Source of the DNA: Pseudomonadota bacterium | Lineage (GTDB): Bacteria > Pseudomonadota > Gammaproteobacteria > SZUA-229 | Direction: 5' to 3' | DNA: 13,819 nt | Assembly: GCA_030673345.1 (NCBI GenBank) | Contig: DAOVJH010000008.1 | Span: 1-13,819 of the forward strand | Shown: piece by piece, positions 6,646 to 13,819 of the stretch | How the letters are laid out: each line of letters begins with the position of its first letter | Position numbering within the stretch: position 1 is the stretch's first letter | Made by a program: the position numbers and the translations under genes | Notes under the pieces: generated by a model | Told to the model about the DNA's origin: nothing | The model's database searches: none | Seen by the model: the letters and a program-made list of their open reading frames with translations, nothing else

Positions 6646-6753
6646 GCCCAGGGATGGGCGGTATTCCGTAAGGAGCCATGGAAGGCGGTGCGGTTATGTG
6701 CAGGAAGTACGGTATTCCGCAAGGAGCGGAAACGCAGTGTGGCGGCCTGTCTC
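6646..6753 (+). repeat. 52-bp structured repeat, locus 1 (about two units)
   Basis: Unit one (6650-6701, with its stem partner GCCC at 6646-6649) closely matches the minus-strand units at 11303-11413, sharing GCCCAGGGATGGGCGGTATT and CGGTTATG. Unit two (from 6702) keeps ACGGTATTCCGCAAGGAGCG and is degraded afterwards. GCCCA-GGGA-TGGGC (6646-6659) is a 5-bp hairpin with a GNRA-type loop, and CCGTA (6666-6670) can pair with TGCGG (6689-6693). The element follows directly on the terminator's T tract. Between it and alaA (6754-6861) I see only AT-rich sequence with no clear promoter. Short frames crossing this region are not credible genes. Confidence 0.85.
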
Positions 6754-8080: not shown

Positions 8081-8797
8081 ATGCCTGATAGTGTTGGTGA
8101 AAATCCACTCTCTGAAAATTTAACCAGGGTTCAGCAAAAGGTTCAGCGATGTGCTGAAAATGCGGGGCGGAATGCCGACGAGATCTGCCTGATCGCTGTT
8201 TCAAAAACCCGTTCACTCGATGAAGTTAGATCGCTTGTCTCGCTAGGACAAAGTTCTTTTGGTGAAAACACCATTCAGGATGCGATGACCAAGATTCCGC
8301 ATCTAAACGATAAAGCACTGGAATGGCATTTCATCGGCCATCTGCAGTCAAAAAAAGCCGGCAAACTGCCCGGTTATTTCCAGTGGATACACTCAGTCGA
8401 TAGCATCAAGCTCGCACAAAAATTGTCGAACGCGATGCAGAACAATTCAAAAAGCGCCCGGCTTAATTGTTTGATACAGGTAAACGTAAGCGGGGAGGAC
8501 AGTAAATCCGGCCTGAAACCTGCTGAGGTAAAACCTTTCTTACAGGAAGTATTAGATCAGCAGTTCCCTTGCCTGGTATGGCGAGGTCTGATGACTATCG
8601 GTGTTCGTGGTGATGAGCAACAGACACGTCGAGCCTTTGCTCAGTTGAGGGAGCTGCAGCAATCCTGTCGAGAAGAATTTTCTCTAGCTGATTTTGACCA
8701 GTTATCTATGGGGATGAGTGGGGATTATTGTCTGGCTATCGAAGAGGGGGCAACGATGGTCAGGGTTGGTACGTCGATTTTTGGGCAGAGAAATTAG
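8081..8797 (+). CDS. yggS: YggS/PLPBP family pyridoxal phosphate homeostasis protein
   Basis: A 238-residue member of the YggS (PROSC/PLPBP) family, cytoplasmic PLP-binding proteins without known catalysis that buffer vitamin B6 and influence amino-acid and keto-acid pools. The Schiff-base lysine is K42 in LIAVSKTRSLDEVR. Other family blocks are SFGENTIQDA, WHFIGHLQSKKA, IHSVDSIKLAQKL, LIQVNVSGEDSKSGL, WRGLMTIG and the C-terminal LSMGMSGDYCLAIEEGATMVRVGTSIFG, which binds the phosphate. The ATG lies 4 bp after the alaA stop, suggesting translational coupling, and the pairing with a PLP enzyme fits its role. It is convergent with the minus-strand block. I see no plus-strand terminator with a T tract directly after it. 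Confidence 0.95.
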   Translation: MPDSVGENPLSENLTRVQQKVQRCAENAGRNADEICLIAVSKTRSLDEVRSLVSLGQSSFGENTIQDAMTKIPHLNDKALEWHFIGHLQSKKAGKLPGYFQWIHSVDSIKLAQKLSNAMQNNSKSARLNCLIQVNVSGEDSKSGLKPAEVKPFLQEVLDQQFPCLVWRGLMTIGVRGDEQQTRRAFAQLRELQQSCREEFSLADFDQLSMGMSGDYCLAIEEGATMVRVGTSIFGQRN

Positions 8798-8850: not shown

Positions 8851-8889
8851 CAAAAAAAGGCGGGCACGTAAACCGAAGTCTACGTGCCC
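8851..8889 (-). terminator. intrinsic terminator of the coiled-coil gene at 9030-9563
   Basis: GGGCACGTA (8862-8870) pairs with TACGTGCCC (8881-8889), a perfect 9-bp stem with a 10-nt loop. On the minus strand the stem is followed by CGCC and seven T residues (A run at 8852-8858). It lies about 140 bp beyond the stop at 9030, implying a long 3' untranslated region. There is no T tract on the plus strand, so it would not be a canonical terminator for yggS. Confidence 0.8.
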
Positions 8890-9029: not shown

Positions 9030-9563
9030 TTAAGATGGTTTAGCCTGTTCAGACGGAGTGCTTGTCTGGTGCATTTTCAGCAGCACCGCTTTACGCTTCT
9101 CTTCTGCTGCCTGGCGACTTTCATTCATCATCTTTTTAATCAGTGTGCGGCGCTCATTCATTAACTTGATGTACTCTTCGCGCCGTGTCTGTGCGTCTTC
9201 CGGTAAACCATATCTGCGAGCTTGATGGTCGTTGGCAGCCTGCTGCCTTCTTTCTTGCATATGGCGTTTGTAAGCTTCAAGCTGCGCTTCATGCATCTGC
9301 CGGCGACGTGTTTCCATCTGCTTAAATGTATCGATGTCGCCTGAAGTTTTGTGTTGAGAGTGGGCTGTCGCTTTTGTCTGTGTACTTACAGTTGAAGAAA
9401 AGCCGCCATCAACATGACCAGCAGTGTCAGCATCACTGACAGTATTACCAGCCCCGTTATTTTTATGTTCATTTTTAACAGATTCCTCAGCCAATAATGG
9501 TTGCGATAAAGCTAGTGTAAATAGCAGTATTATCAGCTGTGTATTTTTTTTTATTGTTGTCAT
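9030..9563 (-). CDS. secreted Arg/Gln-rich coiled-coil protein, unknown function
   Basis: I do not recognise a named family. The 177-residue protein starts with a typical signal peptide (KK at 5-6, hydrophobic 9-20, likely cut after A25 in PLLA-EE), so it should act in the periplasm or beyond. Residues 26-75 are a Gly/Thr/Ser/His-rich linker predicted to be disordered. Residues 78-165 are charged and helical (METRRRQMHEAQLEAYKRHM, then MNERRTLIKKMMNE), with one break at RYGLPED (117-123). The spacing of Arg, Gln, Glu and Met resembles the coiled coil of the protein at 9802-10653 (RRQAYEKEMQDRRTQYE), suggesting a shared type. It has its own promoter with the same TTCTAA-TATAAT box as the sulfur globule-type gene at 11481. 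An AAGGA abuts the ATG with no spacer, which is unusual. A role in sulfur globule assembly is inferred only from context. Confidence 0.8.
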   Translation of the reverse strand: MTTIKKNTQLIILLFTLALSQPLLAEESVKNEHKNNGAGNTVSDADTAGHVDGGFSSTVSTQTKATAHSQHKTSGDIDTFKQMETRRRQMHEAQLEAYKRHMQERRQQAANDHQARRYGLPEDAQTRREEYIKLMNERRTLIKKMMNESRQAAEEKRKAVLLKMHQTSTPSEQAKPS

Positions 9564-9582
9564 TCCTTAACTTTATTTTTTG

Positions 9583-9637
9583 GTACTTCTGTAATGTATT
9601 ATTTCGTCATCTGAAAAATTAGATGCGTTAGAAGTAC
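9583..9637 (-). promoter_or_regulatory. hairpin in the 5' leader of the coiled-coil gene
   Basis: GTACTTCT (9583-9590) pairs perfectly with AGAAGTAC (9630-9637), and inside it CATCT (9608-9612) pairs with AGATG (9621-9625). It occupies most of the roughly 87-nt leader between the promoter at 9657-9685 and the ATG at 9563, leaving the A/G-rich ribosome-binding region unpaired. It may affect mRNA stability or translation; it matches no riboswitch that I know. Confidence 0.4.
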
Positions 9638-9656
9638 ATTAAAATATAGTGAAGTA

Positions 9657-9685
9657 ATTATATTAGAAAATAATTATATAGTCAA
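9657..9685 (-). promoter_or_regulatory. sigma-70-type promoter for the gene at 9030-9563
   Basis: On the minus strand: TTGACT (9685-9680), 17-bp spacer, TATAAT (9662-9657), preceded directly by TTCTAA. This is a near-consensus promoter, with transcription expected from about 9650. The TTCTAATATAAT block is identical to that of the promoter at 12269-12298. Confidence 0.75.
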
Positions 9686-9694
9686 ACTCGTTTG

Positions 9695-9717
9695 TGCTGA
9701 CAGGTCTTAAGTCAGCA
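9695..9717. promoter_or_regulatory. palindrome upstream of the -35, possible operator
   Basis: TGCTGAC-N9-GTCAGCA, a perfect 7-bp inverted repeat whose inner edge is 9 bp upstream of the -35 box, centred near -56 relative to the expected transcription start. A second palindrome, TCGCTGA-TCG-TCAGCGA, lies at 9735-9751 and shares the core GCTGA. Such spacing suits an activator site, but a simple hairpin is also possible. Confidence 0.35.
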
Positions 9718-9753
9718 TTCTATTTAATCGTGAATCGCTGATCGTCAGCGAAT

Positions 9754-9782
9754 AAAAAAGGGCGCTTTAAGCGCCCTTTTTT
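9754..9782 (-). terminator. bidirectional intrinsic terminator of the gene at 9802-10653
   Basis: GGGCGCT (9760-9766), loop TTA, AGCGCCC (9770-9776), flanked by AAAAAA and TTTTTT, so it can work on both strands. It lies 20 bp after the minus-strand stop codon at 9802. Confidence 0.92.
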
Positions 9783-9801
9783 ATTCTGCAGGAAGATAGC
9801 A

Positions 9802-10653
9802 TCACATGCTATGCATAGGTACCGGTGCAGCAGGTTTTTTAGACTGCTGCATGAGCTGGTGAATCTCTTCATGCAGTTTAGATATTTTATTATGAATATC
9901 CTGAATCTTCTGGTTGGTTTCTACGCGATCCTGCTGTGCACGCTGAAATACAGCTTTCTGTGCTTCGGCAATATTTTTACGTTTTTCCTGGCGAGCTTGC
10001 ATTGCTGCTTCATATTGTGTGCGTCGGTCTTGCATCTCTTTTTCATAGGCCTGGCGGCGCTGCTGCAACATTTCCATGCGTTGCTTTGCCATGACCTTCG
10101 CCTGATCACGATTGTATGCGTTATATTGATATGGCGCTGCATAAGGTTGTTGTGGGCGAGCATTGTTGTTAACCGGCCGTGCCTGGGCAGCGACGACCGC
10201 TACAACTTCTTCTTTTACAACTGCAGGTGGAGCTGATTTTGCTTCGGTAACACTGTTTTGCTCAGTTGCTTCAATCTGAGCGACGGCTCCTGCTTTTTCT
10301 GTCGTCGTTTCTACATTTAAAGCAGGCCGATCTTGTGTGGCGTTACTGTCATTACCCGCAGTTTCAGCGACAACTTCAGAAGCAGTTTCAGGAATAGCTT
10401 CAGCAGTAACTTCAGTATTAACTTTAGAAACGGCATTGTCCTGTGCTTCTGTTTGAGCCATAAGGTCGCTGTATTCTTCTTCATAGAATGTGGCGATAAT
10501 AACAATGGCTGATACCAGCAGTAATACCAGCGGTATTACGATATTGCTTTTTGCAGATGTCGTATCGTCTTTATTCTGCTTGTCTTTTTTCATGTAAGGT
10601 GCAGTATCGGTTGTTTCTGCAGTTTTTTCAGTTTTGTTTTCTGTATCACTCAT
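9802..10653 (-). CDS. membrane-anchored coiled-coil protein, unknown function
   Basis: A 283-residue protein of no family I can name. A polar Lys-rich N terminus (1-37) precedes one membrane span at about 38-56 (NIVIPLVLLLVSAIVIIATF), followed by EEEYSD. The positive-inside rule puts the N terminus in the cytoplasm and the rest in the periplasm. Residues 60-160 are a Glu/Thr/Ala/Val-rich disordered linker. Residues 162-181 are rich in Asn, Gln, Tyr and Pro (ending QPYAAPYQYNAYN), like the tails of the sulfur globule-type proteins. Residues 182-271 form a strongly charged coiled coil (RRQAYEKEMQDRRTQYEAAM, NKISKLHEEIHQLMQQ), then a Pro tail. The layout matches the protein at 12595-13386. It lies 139 bp after a sulfur globule-type gene behind a terminator, and its own upstream region shows only a weak promoter candidate (TTGATA near 10705). 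A scaffold or anchor role at sulfur globules is inference. Confidence 0.82.
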   Translation of the reverse strand: MSDTENKTEKTAETTDTAPYMKKDKQNKDDTTSAKSNIVIPLVLLLVSAIVIIATFYEEEYSDLMAQTEAQDNAVSKVNTEVTAEAIPETASEVVAETAGNDSNATQDRPALNVETTTEKAGAVAQIEATEQNSVTEAKSAPPAVVKEEVVAVVAAQARPVNNNARPQQPYAAPYQYNAYNRDQAKVMAKQRMEMLQQRRQAYEKEMQDRRTQYEAAMQARQEKRKNIAEAQKAVFQRAQQDRVETNQKIQDIHNKISKLHEEIHQLMQQSKKPAAPVPMHSM

Positions 10654-10736
10654 GGTGTTTTTCCAGTTTGTTCTATTGTGTATAAGTTTTGATCAAGGCT
10701 CTTTATCAACCATGTATACGGCGGTGATGGTTCCAT

Positions 10737-10769
10737 AAAAAAGGCTGAATACCTTAGGGATTCAGCCTT
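10737..10769 (-). terminator. intrinsic terminator after the sulfur globule-type gene at 10793
   Basis: AAGGCTGAAT (10741-10750) pairs with ATTCAGCCTT (10760-10769), a perfect 10-bp stem with a 9-nt loop; on the minus strand a T tract (A run at 10737-10742) follows. It lies 24 bp after the stop codon and 84 bp before the next start, so any read-through would feed the coiled-coil gene. Confidence 0.9.
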
Positions 10770-10792
10770 TTGAAGTCAATACTAAATATTGG

Positions 10793-11170
10793 CTATTGGG
10801 CAGCCGTTTCAGCCGTTGGAATTGCCTGTACTGGTACCTGGCCATGATTTTGCTGGTAGCCGTAGGGTGCATAGCCATTATTGTAAGCATTGTAATTATA
10901 GCCATTGTAGTTGTTATAACCGTTCCAGTAGTTATTACCGTTAGCACGACCTTTTCCTTTTACTTTAAATTTCATTTCCATGTTCATATCCATGTCCATG
11001 TCACCCATCATGTCATTCATTACATCACCAAAAACGTTGTTATCCCAATTACTATTGTTATAACCGTTATTATTGTAATCATTGTCGTTGTCAAAAGGAC
11101 CCCACCAAGCATTTGCACTGGTTGAGGCAACAGCTACAACAATCGCAGCAATTATCATAATTGTTCTCAT
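10793..11170 (-). CDS. sulfur globule family protein, divergent member
   Basis: A 125-residue secreted protein. The signal peptide is about 1-21 (cut after ANA, leaving WWGPFDNDND). The mature part is rich in Asn, Tyr and Gly with few other residues, typical of the small structural proteins that coat periplasmic sulfur globules in Chromatiaceae and relatives. The centre alternates charged and hydrophobic residues (GDMDMDMNMEMKFKVKGKG, about 56-74), passing from acidic to basic, which parallels the acidic-then-basic core of the other two sulfur globule-type proteins. The tail has YNAYNNGYAPYGYQQN and then a short Ala/Thr/Gln end. AGGAG lies 6 nt before the ATG. Codon use mixes AAT and AAC, less biased than the gene at 11481. 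The family assignment rests on composition and signal peptide, so it is good but not certain. Confidence 0.82.
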   Translation of the reverse strand: MRTIMIIAAIVVAVASTSANAWWGPFDNDNDYNNNGYNNSNWDNNVFGDVMNDMMGDMDMDMNMEMKFKVKGKGRANGNNYWNGYNNYNGYNYNAYNNGYAPYGYQQNHGQVPVQAIPTAETAAQ

Positions 11171-11241
11171 TTTAAACTCCTAAAGTTCGTTAGCAGTATG
11201 GTTCTTTATGCGCTTAAGATCCTTTCGAACCCTTACAATTA

Positions 11242-11270
11242 ATAATATTAGAATGTACAAATATTGACCA
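11242..11270 (-). promoter_or_regulatory. promoter for the sulfur globule-type gene at 10793
   Basis: On the minus strand: TGGTCA (11270-11265, 4 of 6 to consensus), 17-bp spacer, TATTAT (11247-11242, 5 of 6), preceded directly by TTCTAA as in the promoters at 9657 and 12269. The expected leader is about 65 nt. The weak -35 suggests dependence on an activator or lower strength. Confidence 0.55.
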
Positions 11271-11302
11271 TATGACAGAGGGGGTAGGTAACAATTACAT
11301 AG

Positions 11303-11413
11303 GGGCATAAGCGCACCGCCATCCCTGTCTTCTTGCGGAATACCGCCCATCTCTGGGCATAACCGCATCGCCATCCCTGGCTCCTTGCGGAATACCGCCC
11401 ATCCCTGGGCATA
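11303..11413 (-). repeat. 52-bp structured repeat, locus 2 (two full units)
   Basis: Two exact-length tandem units (11303-11354 and 11355-11406) plus the start of a third. On the minus strand each reads GGGCGGTATTCCGCAAG in its middle. Hairpin one is GCCCA-GGGA-TGGGC (11397-11410) or GCCCA-GAGA-TGGGC (11345-11358). Hairpin two joins CCGCA to TGCGG around an inner GCCA-GGGA-TGGC (11363-11390), with a weaker version at 11311-11338. Both loops are GNRA type. The array follows directly on the terminator of the gene at 11481 and shares its orientation. With the promoter at 11242-11270 it accounts for the 310-bp gap between the two sulfur globule-type genes. Confidence 0.88.
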
Positions 11414-11444
11414 AAAAAAGCCGTGTCATGTTTAATGACACGGC
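11413..11444 (-). terminator. intrinsic terminator of the sulfur globule-type gene at 11481
   Basis: GCCGTGTCAT (11420-11429), loop GTTTA, ATGACACGGC (11435-11444): a perfect 10-bp stem. On the minus strand it is followed by seven T residues (11419-11413). It lies 36 bp after the stop codon, and the 52-bp repeat starts at the end of the T tract. Confidence 0.92.
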
Positions 11445-11480
11445 CTTCTTGCAGCTTTAAGAAAAGCTTATAACGTCAGC

Positions 11481-12164
11481 TTACTTAGCTTCAGTTTTAG
11501 CGGCAGGCGCTGCTGCAGCAGGAGCTGCTTGAGGCGCTGGAGCATAACCGTTGTAACCGTTATAACCATTGTAGTAACCGTTAGAACCGTTGTAGTAACC
11601 GTTGTTGTCCCAGTTGCTGTTACCGTTACCGTTTCCACGACCTTTACCTTTACCAGATGCTTTCATGCCGAAAGAGAAAGAACCGTCGAACTCGCCGTCG
11701 CCGTCGAAGTCGCCAGAACCGTTTCCGTTTCCGTTGCTGTTATTGTTCCAGTTGTTATCACCATTGTAAGAACCGTTAGAACTGTTAGAACCGTTGCCAG
11801 CTTGTGGGGCAGGCGCAGCTTGTTGAGCTGGAGCATAGTAGCCAGCTGGAGCATATCCGTTATTGTAACCGTTGTTATAACCGTTAGAACCATTGTAGTA
11901 GTTATCACCGTAGTAAGAACCGTTACCGTTACCGCGACCTTTGCCTTTACCTGATGCTTTCATACCGAAAGAGAAAGAACCGTCAAATTCGCCGTCACCG
12001 TCGAAGTCGCCAGCACCGTTACCGTTGCTGTTGTTGTTCCAGTTGTTGTTACCGTTGTAATTAGAGTTGTTGTTATCGCCGAAGAAAGGCATATCCCAAT
12101 CAGCAGAAACAGCAGTAGAAGTAGCTAAGATAGTTGCAGCAGCAATTATGTGTAAAGTTTTCAT
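11481..12164 (-). CDS. sulfur globule family protein with internal duplication
   Basis: A 227-residue secreted protein: signal peptide about 1-21 (cut after AVSA, leaving DWDMPFFGDNNNSN), then two copies of a roughly 99-residue module rich in Asn, Gly, Tyr and Ser. Residues 52-82 and 151-181 are 31 identical residues (beginning GDFDGDGEFDGSFSFG and ending GKGKGRGNGNG). Each copy goes from an acidic Asp/Gly part through FSFGM to a Lys/Gly part and then a Tyr-Asn-Gly repeat tail ending in Ala/Pro. Composition, secretion and small size fit sulfur globule envelope proteins; most known ones are shorter and single-module. Codon use is strongly biased (almost only GGT, mostly AAC), suggesting high expression. 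It has a GAGGG ribosome-binding site 7 nt before the ATG, a near-consensus promoter and a strong terminator, so it is probably transcribed alone. It is nearly identical over its first module to the gene at 13488. Confidence 0.88.
   Translation of the reverse strand: MKTLHIIAAATILATSTAVSADWDMPFFGDNNNSNYNGNNNWNNNSNGNGAGDFDGDGEFDGSFSFGMKASGKGKGRGNGNGSYYGDNYYNGSNGYNNGYNNGYAPAGYYAPAQQAAPAPQAGNGSNSSNGSYNGDNNWNNNSNGNGNGSGDFDGDGEFDGSFSFGMKASGKGKGRGNGNGNSNWDNNGYYNGSNGYYNGYNGYNGYAPAPQAAPAAAAPAAKTEAK
11622..11714 (-). repeat. internal module core, copy 2
   Basis: Encodes residues 151-181, identical in amino acids to copy 1 at 11919-12011, 297 bp away. The nucleotide copies differ mostly at third codon positions (for example AACTCG against AATTCG read on the plus strand), so the duplication is not brand new or has been kept by selection. 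Confidence 0.9.
11919..12011 (-). repeat. internal module core, copy 1
   Basis: Encodes residues 52-82. It matches copy 2 (11622-11714) residue for residue, and matches the gene at 13488 except for a four-residue gap and one Lys to Arg change. Confidence 0.9.
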
Positions 12165-12268
12165 TTTTAAACCCTCATTTAAGTTTAATTAATACAGCTT
12201 GTTAAAAAAAGTTCATGCGCTCGATCCGTCAGAACTGTTCGTCTAGTTCATTAGAACCGCTGAGTGTT

Positions 12269-12298
12269 ATTATATTAGAATTATATAATATAAGTCAA
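12269..12298 (-). promoter_or_regulatory. sigma-70-type promoter for the sulfur globule-type gene at 11481
   Basis: On the minus strand: TTGACT (12298-12293), 18-bp spacer, TATAAT (12274-12269), preceded directly by TTCTAA. This gives a leader of about 97 nt. Just upstream of the -35 lies a small inverted repeat, TTAAC-N8-GTTAA (12301-12318). The rest of the 430-bp gap (12319-12475) is AT-rich, and I see no gene in it. Confidence 0.75.
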
Positions 12299-12478
12299 TG
12301 TTAACTTACCTTTGTTAAAGTGGATTCAAGGATTAGGTTTATTTTTTAATTATAAGTAAATCAGTTAGTTATTTATTATATTTAATGTGAAGTTTGTGGA
12401 ATGGTATTGCTAAGTGGGTACGGAAAAGTACTCGATATATCCTGTAATTTTGTCATTTTGTGTGTGAAATAACCCATA

Positions 12479-12513
12479 AAAAAGGGCCGGTACATACAGT
12501 ACCGGCCCTTTTT
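12479..12513 (-). terminator. bidirectional intrinsic terminator of the gene at 12595
   Basis: GGGCCGGTAC (12484-12493), loop ATACA, GTACCGGCCC (12499-12508), a perfect 10-bp GC-rich stem flanked by AAAAAA and TTTTT. It lies about 85 bp after the minus-strand stop codon. Confidence 0.93.
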
Positions 12514-12594
12514 ATGTTCAGGATTTTGTTTCTATAGCCTGGCTTTTAGTTGCTGAATCCGGCTAAAAAACTGAGATATAAATCAGATAAGCGG

Positions 12595-13386
12595 TTAGAT
12601 GCGGTTAAGTGCTTCTTCCCGTTTACTCTGATTTTTCTGAACATTTGCAGCGCGTAGTTCGAATAAGTCTTTATTGCGTATAACTAAAGCTTCGATCATT
12701 TGCTGCTGCTGTGCTAGCTGCTCACGCAGACGGGTGATCTGAGCATCCTGACCTGCTCTGTAACGATCTAGCTGCTGTGCTTCCAGTGCCTTGATACGAG
12801 CAAACATTTCAGATATGTGCTGCTTCTGTTCCGCTTTGTGAGCATCGATCCGTGCCTGGTTTTCTTTAACCAGTTGTTCGTGGCGTAACTTTGCAGGGCT
12901 TTCAGATGTAGTCATTTCGAACTGTGATGCAACAGCAGTTTCTTCCTGCTCAGCAACAACTGGCGCTGTCGCCGTTTCCTGAGCAACCAGAACTTCAGCT
13001 GCCGGCGTTTCTGTCATTTCAGCAACAGGTGCTTCTGTAATTTCAGCAATAGGTGCTGTTTCAGTTTTTGCCGTTTCGGTAACCACTGCTTCCTTGCTTT
13101 CTGTGTTTGCAACTGAAGTCGGTTCAGCTGGTGCAAGATCTGCTGTCGTTTCAGCAGCAGGTGTATCAGTACCAGCTGCTATGTTCATTTCAGCTACTTC
13201 GTTTTCAATCATTGCAAGATGTTCGTCGACATCGCTTAATTGTTTATTCAGCATAATCGCTGTCGTTACGATGATGCTTACCATGATGACGGCAACGATT
13301 GCGTATTTACCTAATGGAGCAAATACCGCTTTGTTGTCGCTTTCTGCTGGTACAGCTGTGTTCTCTGATTGTTTTTCTGTAGTCAT
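12595..13386 (-). CDS. membrane-anchored coiled-coil protein, unknown function
   Basis: A 263-residue protein of no family I can name. The ATG at 13386 is chosen because GGGGAG lies 6 nt upstream; an in-frame ATG at 13461 would add 25 residues but overlaps a terminator-like hairpin and has no ribosome-binding site. One membrane span at about 28-46 (KYAIVAVIMVSIIVTTAIML) is followed by a short helix (QLSDVDEHLAMIENEVAEM), then a long Ala/Glu/Thr/Pro linker (70-165) with loose repeats such as IAEITEAPVAEMTETPAAE, then a charged Gln-rich coiled coil (166-262: ARIKALEAQQLDRYRAGQDA, LREQLAQQQQMIEAL). The coiled coil should face the periplasm, the compartment of sulfur globules. The layout equals that of the protein at 9802-10653 despite little sequence identity outside composition, and both follow a sulfur globule-type gene. 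Function is inferred only from this context. Confidence 0.82.
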   Translation of the reverse strand: MTTEKQSENTAVPAESDNKAVFAPLGKYAIVAVIMVSIIVTTAIMLNKQLSDVDEHLAMIENEVAEMNIAAGTDTPAAETTADLAPAEPTSVANTESKEAVVTETAKTETAPIAEITEAPVAEMTETPAAEVLVAQETATAPVVAEQEETAVASQFEMTTSESPAKLRHEQLVKENQARIDAHKAEQKQHISEMFARIKALEAQQLDRYRAGQDAQITRLREQLAQQQQMIEALVIRNKDLFELRAANVQKNQSKREEALNRI

Positions 13387-13423
13387 GATGACTCCCCGGA
13401 TAAATTTATGGTGATGTTCGCTG

Positions 13424-13456
13424 AAAAGCCCAACCCCTGTAATACAGAAGTCGGGC
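13424..13456 (-). terminator. terminator-like hairpin before the coiled-coil gene
   Basis: On the minus strand GCCCGAC (13456-13450) pairs with GTTGGGC (13434-13428), including one G-U pair, with an inner CTGT-ATT-ACAG stem. It is followed by only four T residues. It lies between the sulfur globule-type gene (stop at 13488) and the coiled-coil start at 13386. The short T tract suggests a leaky terminator, allowing high expression of the first gene and low expression of the second. Confidence 0.6.
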
Positions 13457-13487
13457 CACACCTAACGAAAGTTATTTAAGCGTTGGC

Positions 13488-13819
13488 CTATTTAGCAGCA
13501 GGCGCTGGTGCAGCTACAGCAGGCGCAGCTTGAGGCGCTGGAGCGTAACCTTGTGGTGCATAACCGTTGTAGTAACCATTGTTATAACCGTTAGAACCAT
13601 TGTAGTAGTTATCACCGTAGTAAGAACCGTTACCGTTACCACGACCGCGGCCTTTACCAGACGCTTTCATACCGAAAGAGAAAGAACCGTCAAACTCGCC
13701 GTCACCAGCACCGTTACCGTTGCTGTTATTGTTCCAGTTGTTGTTACCGTTGTAATTAGAGTTGTTGTTATCGCCGAAGAAAGGCATATCCCAATCAGCA
13801 GAAACAGCAGTAGAAGTAG
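13488..13819 (-). CDS. sulfur globule family protein, 5'-truncated by the window edge
   Basis: The frame is open to the last base; the Met at 13787 is internal. Of the signal peptide only TSTAVSA remains, followed by the mature start DWDMPFFGDNNNSN, the same as in the gene at 11481. Visible are 109 residues forming one module: Asn/Gly-rich start, GAGDGEFDGSFSFGM, GKGRGRGNGNG, a Tyr-Asn-Gly tail and an Ala/Pro end. Compared with the first module of the 11481 protein it lacks four residues (DFDG, 12 bp, between short direct repeats) and has a Lys to Arg change. From 13700 to 13819 the DNA is nearly identical to 12020-12125, apart from a few third-position changes, which points to recent duplication or gene conversion. 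With its single module it is about half the length of its paralogue. It is followed after 101 bp by the coiled-coil gene at 12595 and may be co-transcribed with it. Confidence 0.87.
   Translation of the reverse strand, partial: TSTAVSADWDMPFFGDNNNSNYNGNNNWNNNSNGNGAGDGEFDGSFSFGMKASGKGRGRGNGNGSYYGDNYYNGSNGYNNGYYNGYAPQGYAPAPQAAPAVAAPAPAAK

Follow-up and report, generated by a model that had tools for sequence, protein, structure and literature searches.

A putative sulfur-globule envelope locus with predicted membrane-anchored helical proteins in a gammaproteobacterial genome

The window analysed here is an entire contig of 13,819 bases (DAOVJH010000008.1) from a metagenome-assembled gammaproteobacterial genome (GCA_030673345.1; 2.18 Mb, 494 contigs, 85.6% complete). 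Six of its minus-strand genes encode, in order, a sulfur globule protein (SGP; g1), a predicted membrane-anchored helical protein (COIL-A; g2), two further SGPs (g3 and g4), a second protein with a predicted anchor (COIL-B; g5) and a secreted helical protein (g6). This order, on which the initial annotation had built its case, is borne out, and it recurs in full on six other contigs (L064, L065, L066, L075, L077 and L111; L numbers denote stretches and G numbers genomes), ending there in the secreted coil or in an SGP/helix protein. Because the order is repeated on other contigs, chance neighbourhood is rejected. With a little better than even confidence, we read the six genes as a sulfur-globule envelope locus, in which SGPs make up the coat, membrane-anchored coils dock, tether or space it, and the secreted coil is a coat component.

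According to this reading, g1, g3 and g4 would be exported and would form the coat of the globule. COIL-A and COIL-B are predicted to span the cytoplasmic membrane with a cytoplasmic N-terminus, and a flexible linker would carry a long amphipathic helix into the periplasm, where it could dock on the coat, tie it to the membrane and space it. Each anchored coil would perhaps be made in smaller amounts than the SGP preceding it, through terminator read-through, while g6, perhaps an SgpD-type protein, would be part of the coat; it shares its promoter type with some of the SGP genes. The likeliest role of the anchored proteins is thus that of a putative tether or scaffold between the inner membrane and the globule coat. 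The locus bears on the question of how a bacterium holds, positions and reaches its stored sulfur, and a link between globule and membrane would become testable if such partners, anchored in the membrane and constant in their pairing, formed defined families.

Globule proteins and their anchored partners

The small secreted Asn/Gly/Tyr-rich proteins had been taken for the sulfur globule type, and g1, g3 and g4 all score above the Pfam cut-off of 26.7 bits for PF17228 (sulphur globule protein). The DNA of g1, which lacks its 5′ end because the window ends at the contig end, is 80% identical to part of g3 over 241 nucleotides. Signal-like N-terminal stretches are seen in g3, g4 and g6, while g2 and g5 each have one strong hydrophobic stretch, from about residues 28 and 38, respectively; these topology calls were made with a hydropathy window and by inspection, not with a signal-peptide program. 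In family, in Gly/Asn/Tyr-rich composition and, for g3 and g4, in their signal-like N-termini, the three proteins resemble SgpA, SgpB and SgpC of Allochromatium vinosum. However, the accessible literature places the genes of the latter under locus tags that are far apart (Alvin_1905, Alvin_0358 and Alvin_1325), whereas the SGP genes here are clustered and interleaved with those of anchored helical proteins. Globule coats are described, in the parts of that literature open to us, as 2-14 nm thick.

None of g2, g5 and g6 reaches a curated cut-off in Pfam or NCBIfam. The initial description of three unrecognised coil partners stands to that extent, although g6 partly fits a published description of SgpD (see below). 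Pfam scans at E 0.01 of 12 COIL-A, 19 COIL-B and 16 g6-type proteins gave scattered matches only, in one or two members each, apart from PF17228, which is matched by 8 of the 16 g6-type proteins. Sequence profiles of COIL-A and COIL-B found no match among solved structures. The AlphaFold model of g2 (mean pLDDT 65, pTM 0.30) predicts helices at residues 19-71 and 164-262, the second mostly with pLDDT >90, and low confidence between them. With the usual helical rise of 0.15 nm per residue, the 99-residue COIL-A helix would be about 15 nm long. For the most part, the predicted models consist of helices that stand alone.

Relatives were sought in 58 genomes, namely the host, 17 of its genus, 19 more of its family (f1) and 21 of its class; the family of G051 is represented by a single genome. 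A scan of the genome contigs with the single g2 sequence confirmed 0 of 42 candidates, and COIL-A relatives were recovered by an alignment search instead. In the genome-wide profile search COIL-A is matched in 12 of the 58 genomes, host included, and all 12 genes adjoin an SGP gene, as would be expected if the initial annotation had rightly associated these coils with globule genes. Ten of the 12 stand directly behind the SGP. COIL-A also lies beside an SGP at 10 of 10 named loci, nine of which had already been counted, L111 being new; all ten are metagenome-assembled Gammaproteobacteria, one of them named Thiotrichaceae bacterium NORP24. From the isolate names, some of these relatives are presumably of vent or marine origin. 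Profiles of the anchor half and of the tail half each recover the identical 13 COIL-A genes with no decoy match, the anchor profile also matching one stray opposite-strand frame at 0.0016.

For COIL-B the association is looser. It is matched in 14 of the 58 genomes, including a weak match in G039 that was treated as unrelated, and among its 17 genes, 11 are directly behind an SGP and one is at a contig start; four lie elsewhere, the last gene being the weak match. The claim that homologues lie beside globule genes therefore holds for most COIL-B genes but not for those four. Further COIL-B-like genes stand behind SGPs in G020, G021, G023, G026, G032 and G034, whose loci were chosen for their SGP content and are thus a biased sample of COIL-B placement. 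With half-profiles built from the genus only, L079, L081 and L091 are recovered by the tail profile and L082 at 0.047, while L080 and L097 are matched by neither half and rest on the iterated profile and on position. The four copies away from SGP genes span L084 4800-5564, L085 5784-6566, L086 1615-2259 and L087 5732-6559, and three of them have long Lys/Ala/Pro-rich N-terminal tails.

The surroundings of the locus are also conserved. Among 23 stretches with coil genes, 11 have an exonuclease I gene (named by NCBIfam) and 14 have yggS and/or an aminotransferase gene, with both present in 8, so that 17 of the 23 have at least one of these neighbours.

The secreted helical protein and the periodicity of the tails

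The secreted coil is matched in 7 of the 58 genomes, host included. Six of the seven genes, one of them broken, lie behind COIL-B, and the seventh, at a contig edge, is still beside yggS, which agrees with the earlier assignment of this protein to the globule locus. The AlphaFold model of g6 (mean pLDDT 68) predicts helices at residues 74-116 and 122-168. In other genera, the position of g6 is taken by SGP/helix hybrids, in which a helical tail extends an SGP part; a single protein can thus combine coat and helix modules. Since iteration from g6 drifted into SGPs, a model built from six orthologues was used instead. A search with one hybrid tail found no homologue at E 0.001, and another tail gave one weak match in 30 SGP-bearing genomes.

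In the accessible part of the published description (PMC10386293), SgpD of A. vinosum (Alvin_2515) has a signal peptide, two confident helices, a low-confidence remainder and regular prolines; it is the most abundant globule protein of that species, co-localises with the globules, is dispensable for their formation and is restricted almost entirely to Chromatiaceae. Its role is called unclear in the print available to us. Compared by description only, g6 is similar in its signal-like N-terminus and two predicted helices, and it is broken in two relatives. Unlike SgpD, it shows on inspection no regularly spaced prolines between the helices, although its positional relatives in L083, L111 and L077 do. 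Hence, g6 may be of the SgpD type, a likeness drawn from the published description. The sgpD gene is also said, in the text open to us, to adjoin an RND tripartite exporter, and an exporter of this kind lies between SGP genes in L075 4811-10532 (G018). Comparison of profiles aligns only 38 columns of the helical tails between COIL-A and COIL-B and only 42 between COIL-B and the g6 group, so kinship of the three is not established.

The partners had been called coiled-coil proteins. When large hydrophobic residues are counted, the best hydrophobic period is 3.56-3.75 in 12/12 COIL-A, 19/19 COIL-B and 15/16 g6-type tails, values outside the 3.45-3.55 taken for a heptad period of 3.5 over the helix (the controls Lpp and GCN4 give 3.50 and 3.46, respectively). 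A second hydrophobicity scale repeats this for all 12 COIL-A, 16 of the COIL-B and 10 of the g6-type tails, which leaves the g6-type result less firm. The heptad period is approached only in the final 45-55 residues of g2 and g5, at 3.53-3.55. Conservation is periodic in COIL-A alone (3.60, shuffle p 0.03), with no such period in COIL-B or the g6 group (shuffle p 0.50 and 0.52). Residues 184-227 of COIL-B are in 11-residue phases and residues 228-275 in heptad phases; g6-type residues 95-148 show clear 11-residue phases, while those of COIL-A are weaker. The hydrophobic stripe of COIL-B is narrow, with mainly two positions per repeat. A standard heptad coiled coil is therefore rejected for most of the tail length; the original term fits best the helix end, near the C-termini of g2 and g5, and the remainder, with its period of about 3.6 and its 11-residue repeats, is compatible with either a hendecad coiled coil or a surface helix.

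Promoters and terminators

The layout of the loci was compared in the window, L111 and the fetched stretches other than L099 (39 of 40), at E 1e-5, which dropped L098; genes lacking their 5′ end and unnamed frames shorter than 110 amino acids were excluded, and a promoter was called at 10 or more of 12 bases. Between an SGP and the COIL-A behind it (11 gaps, median 123 bases), a promoter is found in none and a terminator in 8. Between an SGP and COIL-B (18 gaps, median 97.5 bases), the counts are 1 and 13. It should be noted that a promoter fits less easily into a short gap and is therefore less likely to be detected there. COIL-A genes without a preceding SGP have a promoter in 1 of 2 cases. 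From COIL-A to the next SGP, on the other hand, the 12 gaps have a median of 369 bases and 10 of them a promoter, and all 8 gaps before the secreted coil have one (including one before a broken gene and one before a 123-amino-acid relative). The remaining SGP gaps have a promoter in 4/8 cases after COIL-B, 5/22 after an SGP, 7/22 after other genes and 2/10 at divergent or edge positions. In control gaps, promoters are called in 6 of 190 and 2 of 82, and terminators in 9 of 83.

In 37 genomes (about 97 Mb from rounded sizes), a strict form of the promoter is found 18 times, as against once for the reversed control pattern. In 17 of the 18 cases the gene 53-106 bases downstream encodes an SGP, a hybrid or a secreted coil (one of these genes is broken), and the eighteenth copy precedes the relic of a secreted coil in G012.

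Features of the window and their positions, with the evidence for each
Feature	Positions	Strand	Evidence
g1, sulfur globule protein, 5′ end cut by contig end	13488..13819	-	PF17228, 40.2 bits
g2, COIL-A: cytoplasmic tail, one membrane helix, disordered linker and 99-residue helix ending in RI (predicted)	12595..13386	-	profile matches, AlphaFold
Terminator hairpin 3′ of g2	12478..12508	-	-28.8 kcal/mol
g3 promoter, TTGACT-18-TATAAT	12269..12298	-	promoter pattern
g3, sulfur globule protein, two SGP units	11481..12164	-	PF17228, 53.2 bits, 2 stretches
Terminator hairpin 3′ of g3	11414..11450	-	hairpin scan
g4 promoter, weaker, type of g3 promoter, 9/12 bases	11242..11270	-	promoter pattern
g4, sulfur globule protein	10793..11170	-	PF17228, 37.1 bits
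Terminator hairpin, g4-g5 gap	10739..10771	-	-15.4 kcal/mol
g5, COIL-B: cytoplasmic tail, one membrane helix, linker, C-terminal 11-residue repeats then heptads (predicted)	9802..10653	-	profiles, periodicity
Terminator hairpin 3′ of g5	9750..9786	-	hairpin scan
g6 promoter, TTGACT-17-TATAAT, type of g3 promoter	9657..9685	-	promoter pattern
g6, secreted helical protein, possibly SgpD type	9030..9563	-	profile matches, AlphaFold
Terminator 3′ of g6	8862..8889	-	terminator scan
yggS, conserved neighbour of locus	8081..8797	+	TIGR00044, 217 bits; synteny

An Rfam search of the window gave no match. Copies of a short interspersed repeat (core ATGGGCGGTATTCCGC) are present at window positions 6654, 11335 and 11387; the latter two form a 52-nucleotide tandem in the g3-g4 gap, and L066 and L095 have one looser match each.

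Distribution, sulfur metabolism and alternative roles

An SGP is matched in 29 of the 58 genomes, and dsrA exceeds its cut-off in 28. The coils had been expected to be confined to sulfur oxidisers. All 13 genomes with COIL-A, or with a COIL-B that is linked to an SGP or at a contig edge, have soxB over cut-off (G000, G003, G004, G006, G008, G010, G011, G012, G017, G018, G025, G029 and G033), and 9 of these 13 also have dsrA. G007 (73% complete), whose only coil is a COIL-B copy elsewhere, gave no SGP, soxB or dsrA match.

Beyond the 58 genomes, the COIL-B alignment found at least 58 proteins when set against 5.8 billion (with scoring limited to the 7995 candidates that had most words in common), among them one record from a hydrothermal vent metagenome. 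A COIL-B alignment built on other genera recovered 8 proteins. The endosymbiont of Galathealinum brachiosum, which the accessible literature lists among sulfur-oxidizing symbionts, has one COIL-B-like protein.

A number of observations weigh against the envelope reading. Four COIL-B copies are away from SGP genes (G000:C128, G004:C69, G007:C251 and G003:C61), the COIL-A genes of L070 and L076 follow exonuclease I with the SGP next to them, one of the two having its own promoter, and 6 of the 23 coil stretches, all from other genera, are at other sites with neither exonuclease I nor yggS or the aminotransferase gene. The COIL-B model matched 8 of 369 genomes of the class, only two of them clearly and both in the window's family; this count is a lower bound, given that G021 and G032, with diverged COIL-B-like genes, were missed. 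SGPs are found in 56 of the 369, of which 2 have a COIL-B match, so coats exist with no detectable COIL-B, and on account of this rarity the coils look like lineage-specific additions. The coil carriers G000, G003, G010 and G029 gave no dsrA match over the cut-off. The secreted coil is broken by in-frame stops in G010 (L069 from 2449) and survives in G012 (L071 from about 10667) as a relic downstream of an intact promoter, and for this reason it seems dispensable. Regarding expression, a promoter stands before only 28 of 74 SGP genes overall, and the strict pattern was derived from these very loci, so that only its absence elsewhere is independent evidence. Terminators also occur in 20 of 22 SGP-SGP gaps and in 21 of 27 gaps from a coil to the next gene. 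They thus mark most genes of these loci, which makes read-through control of the coils a weakly supported reading, one among others.

The six weak class-wide COIL-B matches, in genomes with no SGP match and with none in the short loci examined, were treated as chance, as was the weak match in G039.

A more specific form of the envelope reading would make COIL-A and COIL-B the first membrane-anchored globule proteins, tethers whose linker and 11-residue-repeat helix act in a perilipin-like manner and which are held at a fixed low ratio by terminator read-through. In the portion of PMC5889406 available, perilipins are described as having 11-residue repeats and long amphipathic helices that lie on a hydrophobic store, and COIL-A and COIL-B may be alike by that description, the 11-residue phases being clear in part of COIL-B and weaker in COIL-A. 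They differ in having a predicted membrane anchor and, for COIL-B, a narrow stripe; no homology was seen and none was searched for. In the open-access literature consulted, as far as its text was available (PMC10386293, PMC7580541, PMC12481199, PMC5889406, PMC6908572 and PMC10892978, with subscription journals mostly outside it), we saw secreted coat proteins only and no membrane-anchored globule protein. We regard this specific form as doubtful, and our confidence in it was lowered slightly because terminators follow most genes of these loci.

Alternatively, the anchored helices may act outside the coat, as membrane-bound periplasmic chaperones or export partners that hand the emerging low-complexity SGPs to the growing globule. 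Each anchored coil is usually directly behind one SGP, its predicted anchor is in the membrane where SGPs emerge, and its long linker is of low confidence, all of which would suit such a role. In contrast, the secreted coil and the SGP/helix hybrids carry helical tails on exported proteins of the coat type, which suggests that helices belong in the coat, and we judge the chaperone role unlikely.

We give still less credence to the proposal that the anchored coils have a general role in the envelope, for example in keeping inner membrane and cell wall apart, and are at this locus, possibly under its regulation too, by happenstance. The four dispersed COIL-B copies speak for it, one of them in the incomplete genome G007 where no SGP was found, but COIL-A is beside an SGP in every one of its 12 genes. 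Within family f1, moreover, COIL-A is present in 12 of 27 SGP-bearing genomes and in 0 of 10 SGP-lacking ones, several of these genomes being incomplete.

Finally, that the Asn/Gly/Tyr-rich proteins bind extracellular sulfur or form a surface matrix to which the coils are anchors is very improbable, for although dsrA was not found over the cut-off in the window's genome, so that use of stored sulfur is unproven there, and no isolate or microscopy was seen for the genus, the PF17228 matches, the soxB gene of that genome, dsrA in nearly half of the genomes searched and the paired genes of the G. brachiosum symbiont all argue against it.

A second conserved SGP locus was seen in L101, L093, L102 and L096 (G001, G002, G012 and G015), within the stretches examined. 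It comprises genes for an RND transporter, two unknown proteins, an SGP, a DUF4412-like protein, a ParA-type ATPase, a TPR protein and a DUF302 protein, then a membrane protein that weakly matches the coil type, and a dynamin-family GTPase; both L093 and L096 are truncated at one end, and three of these genes went undetected in L096. The presence of ParA and dynamin beside a globule protein suggests positioning or membrane shaping.

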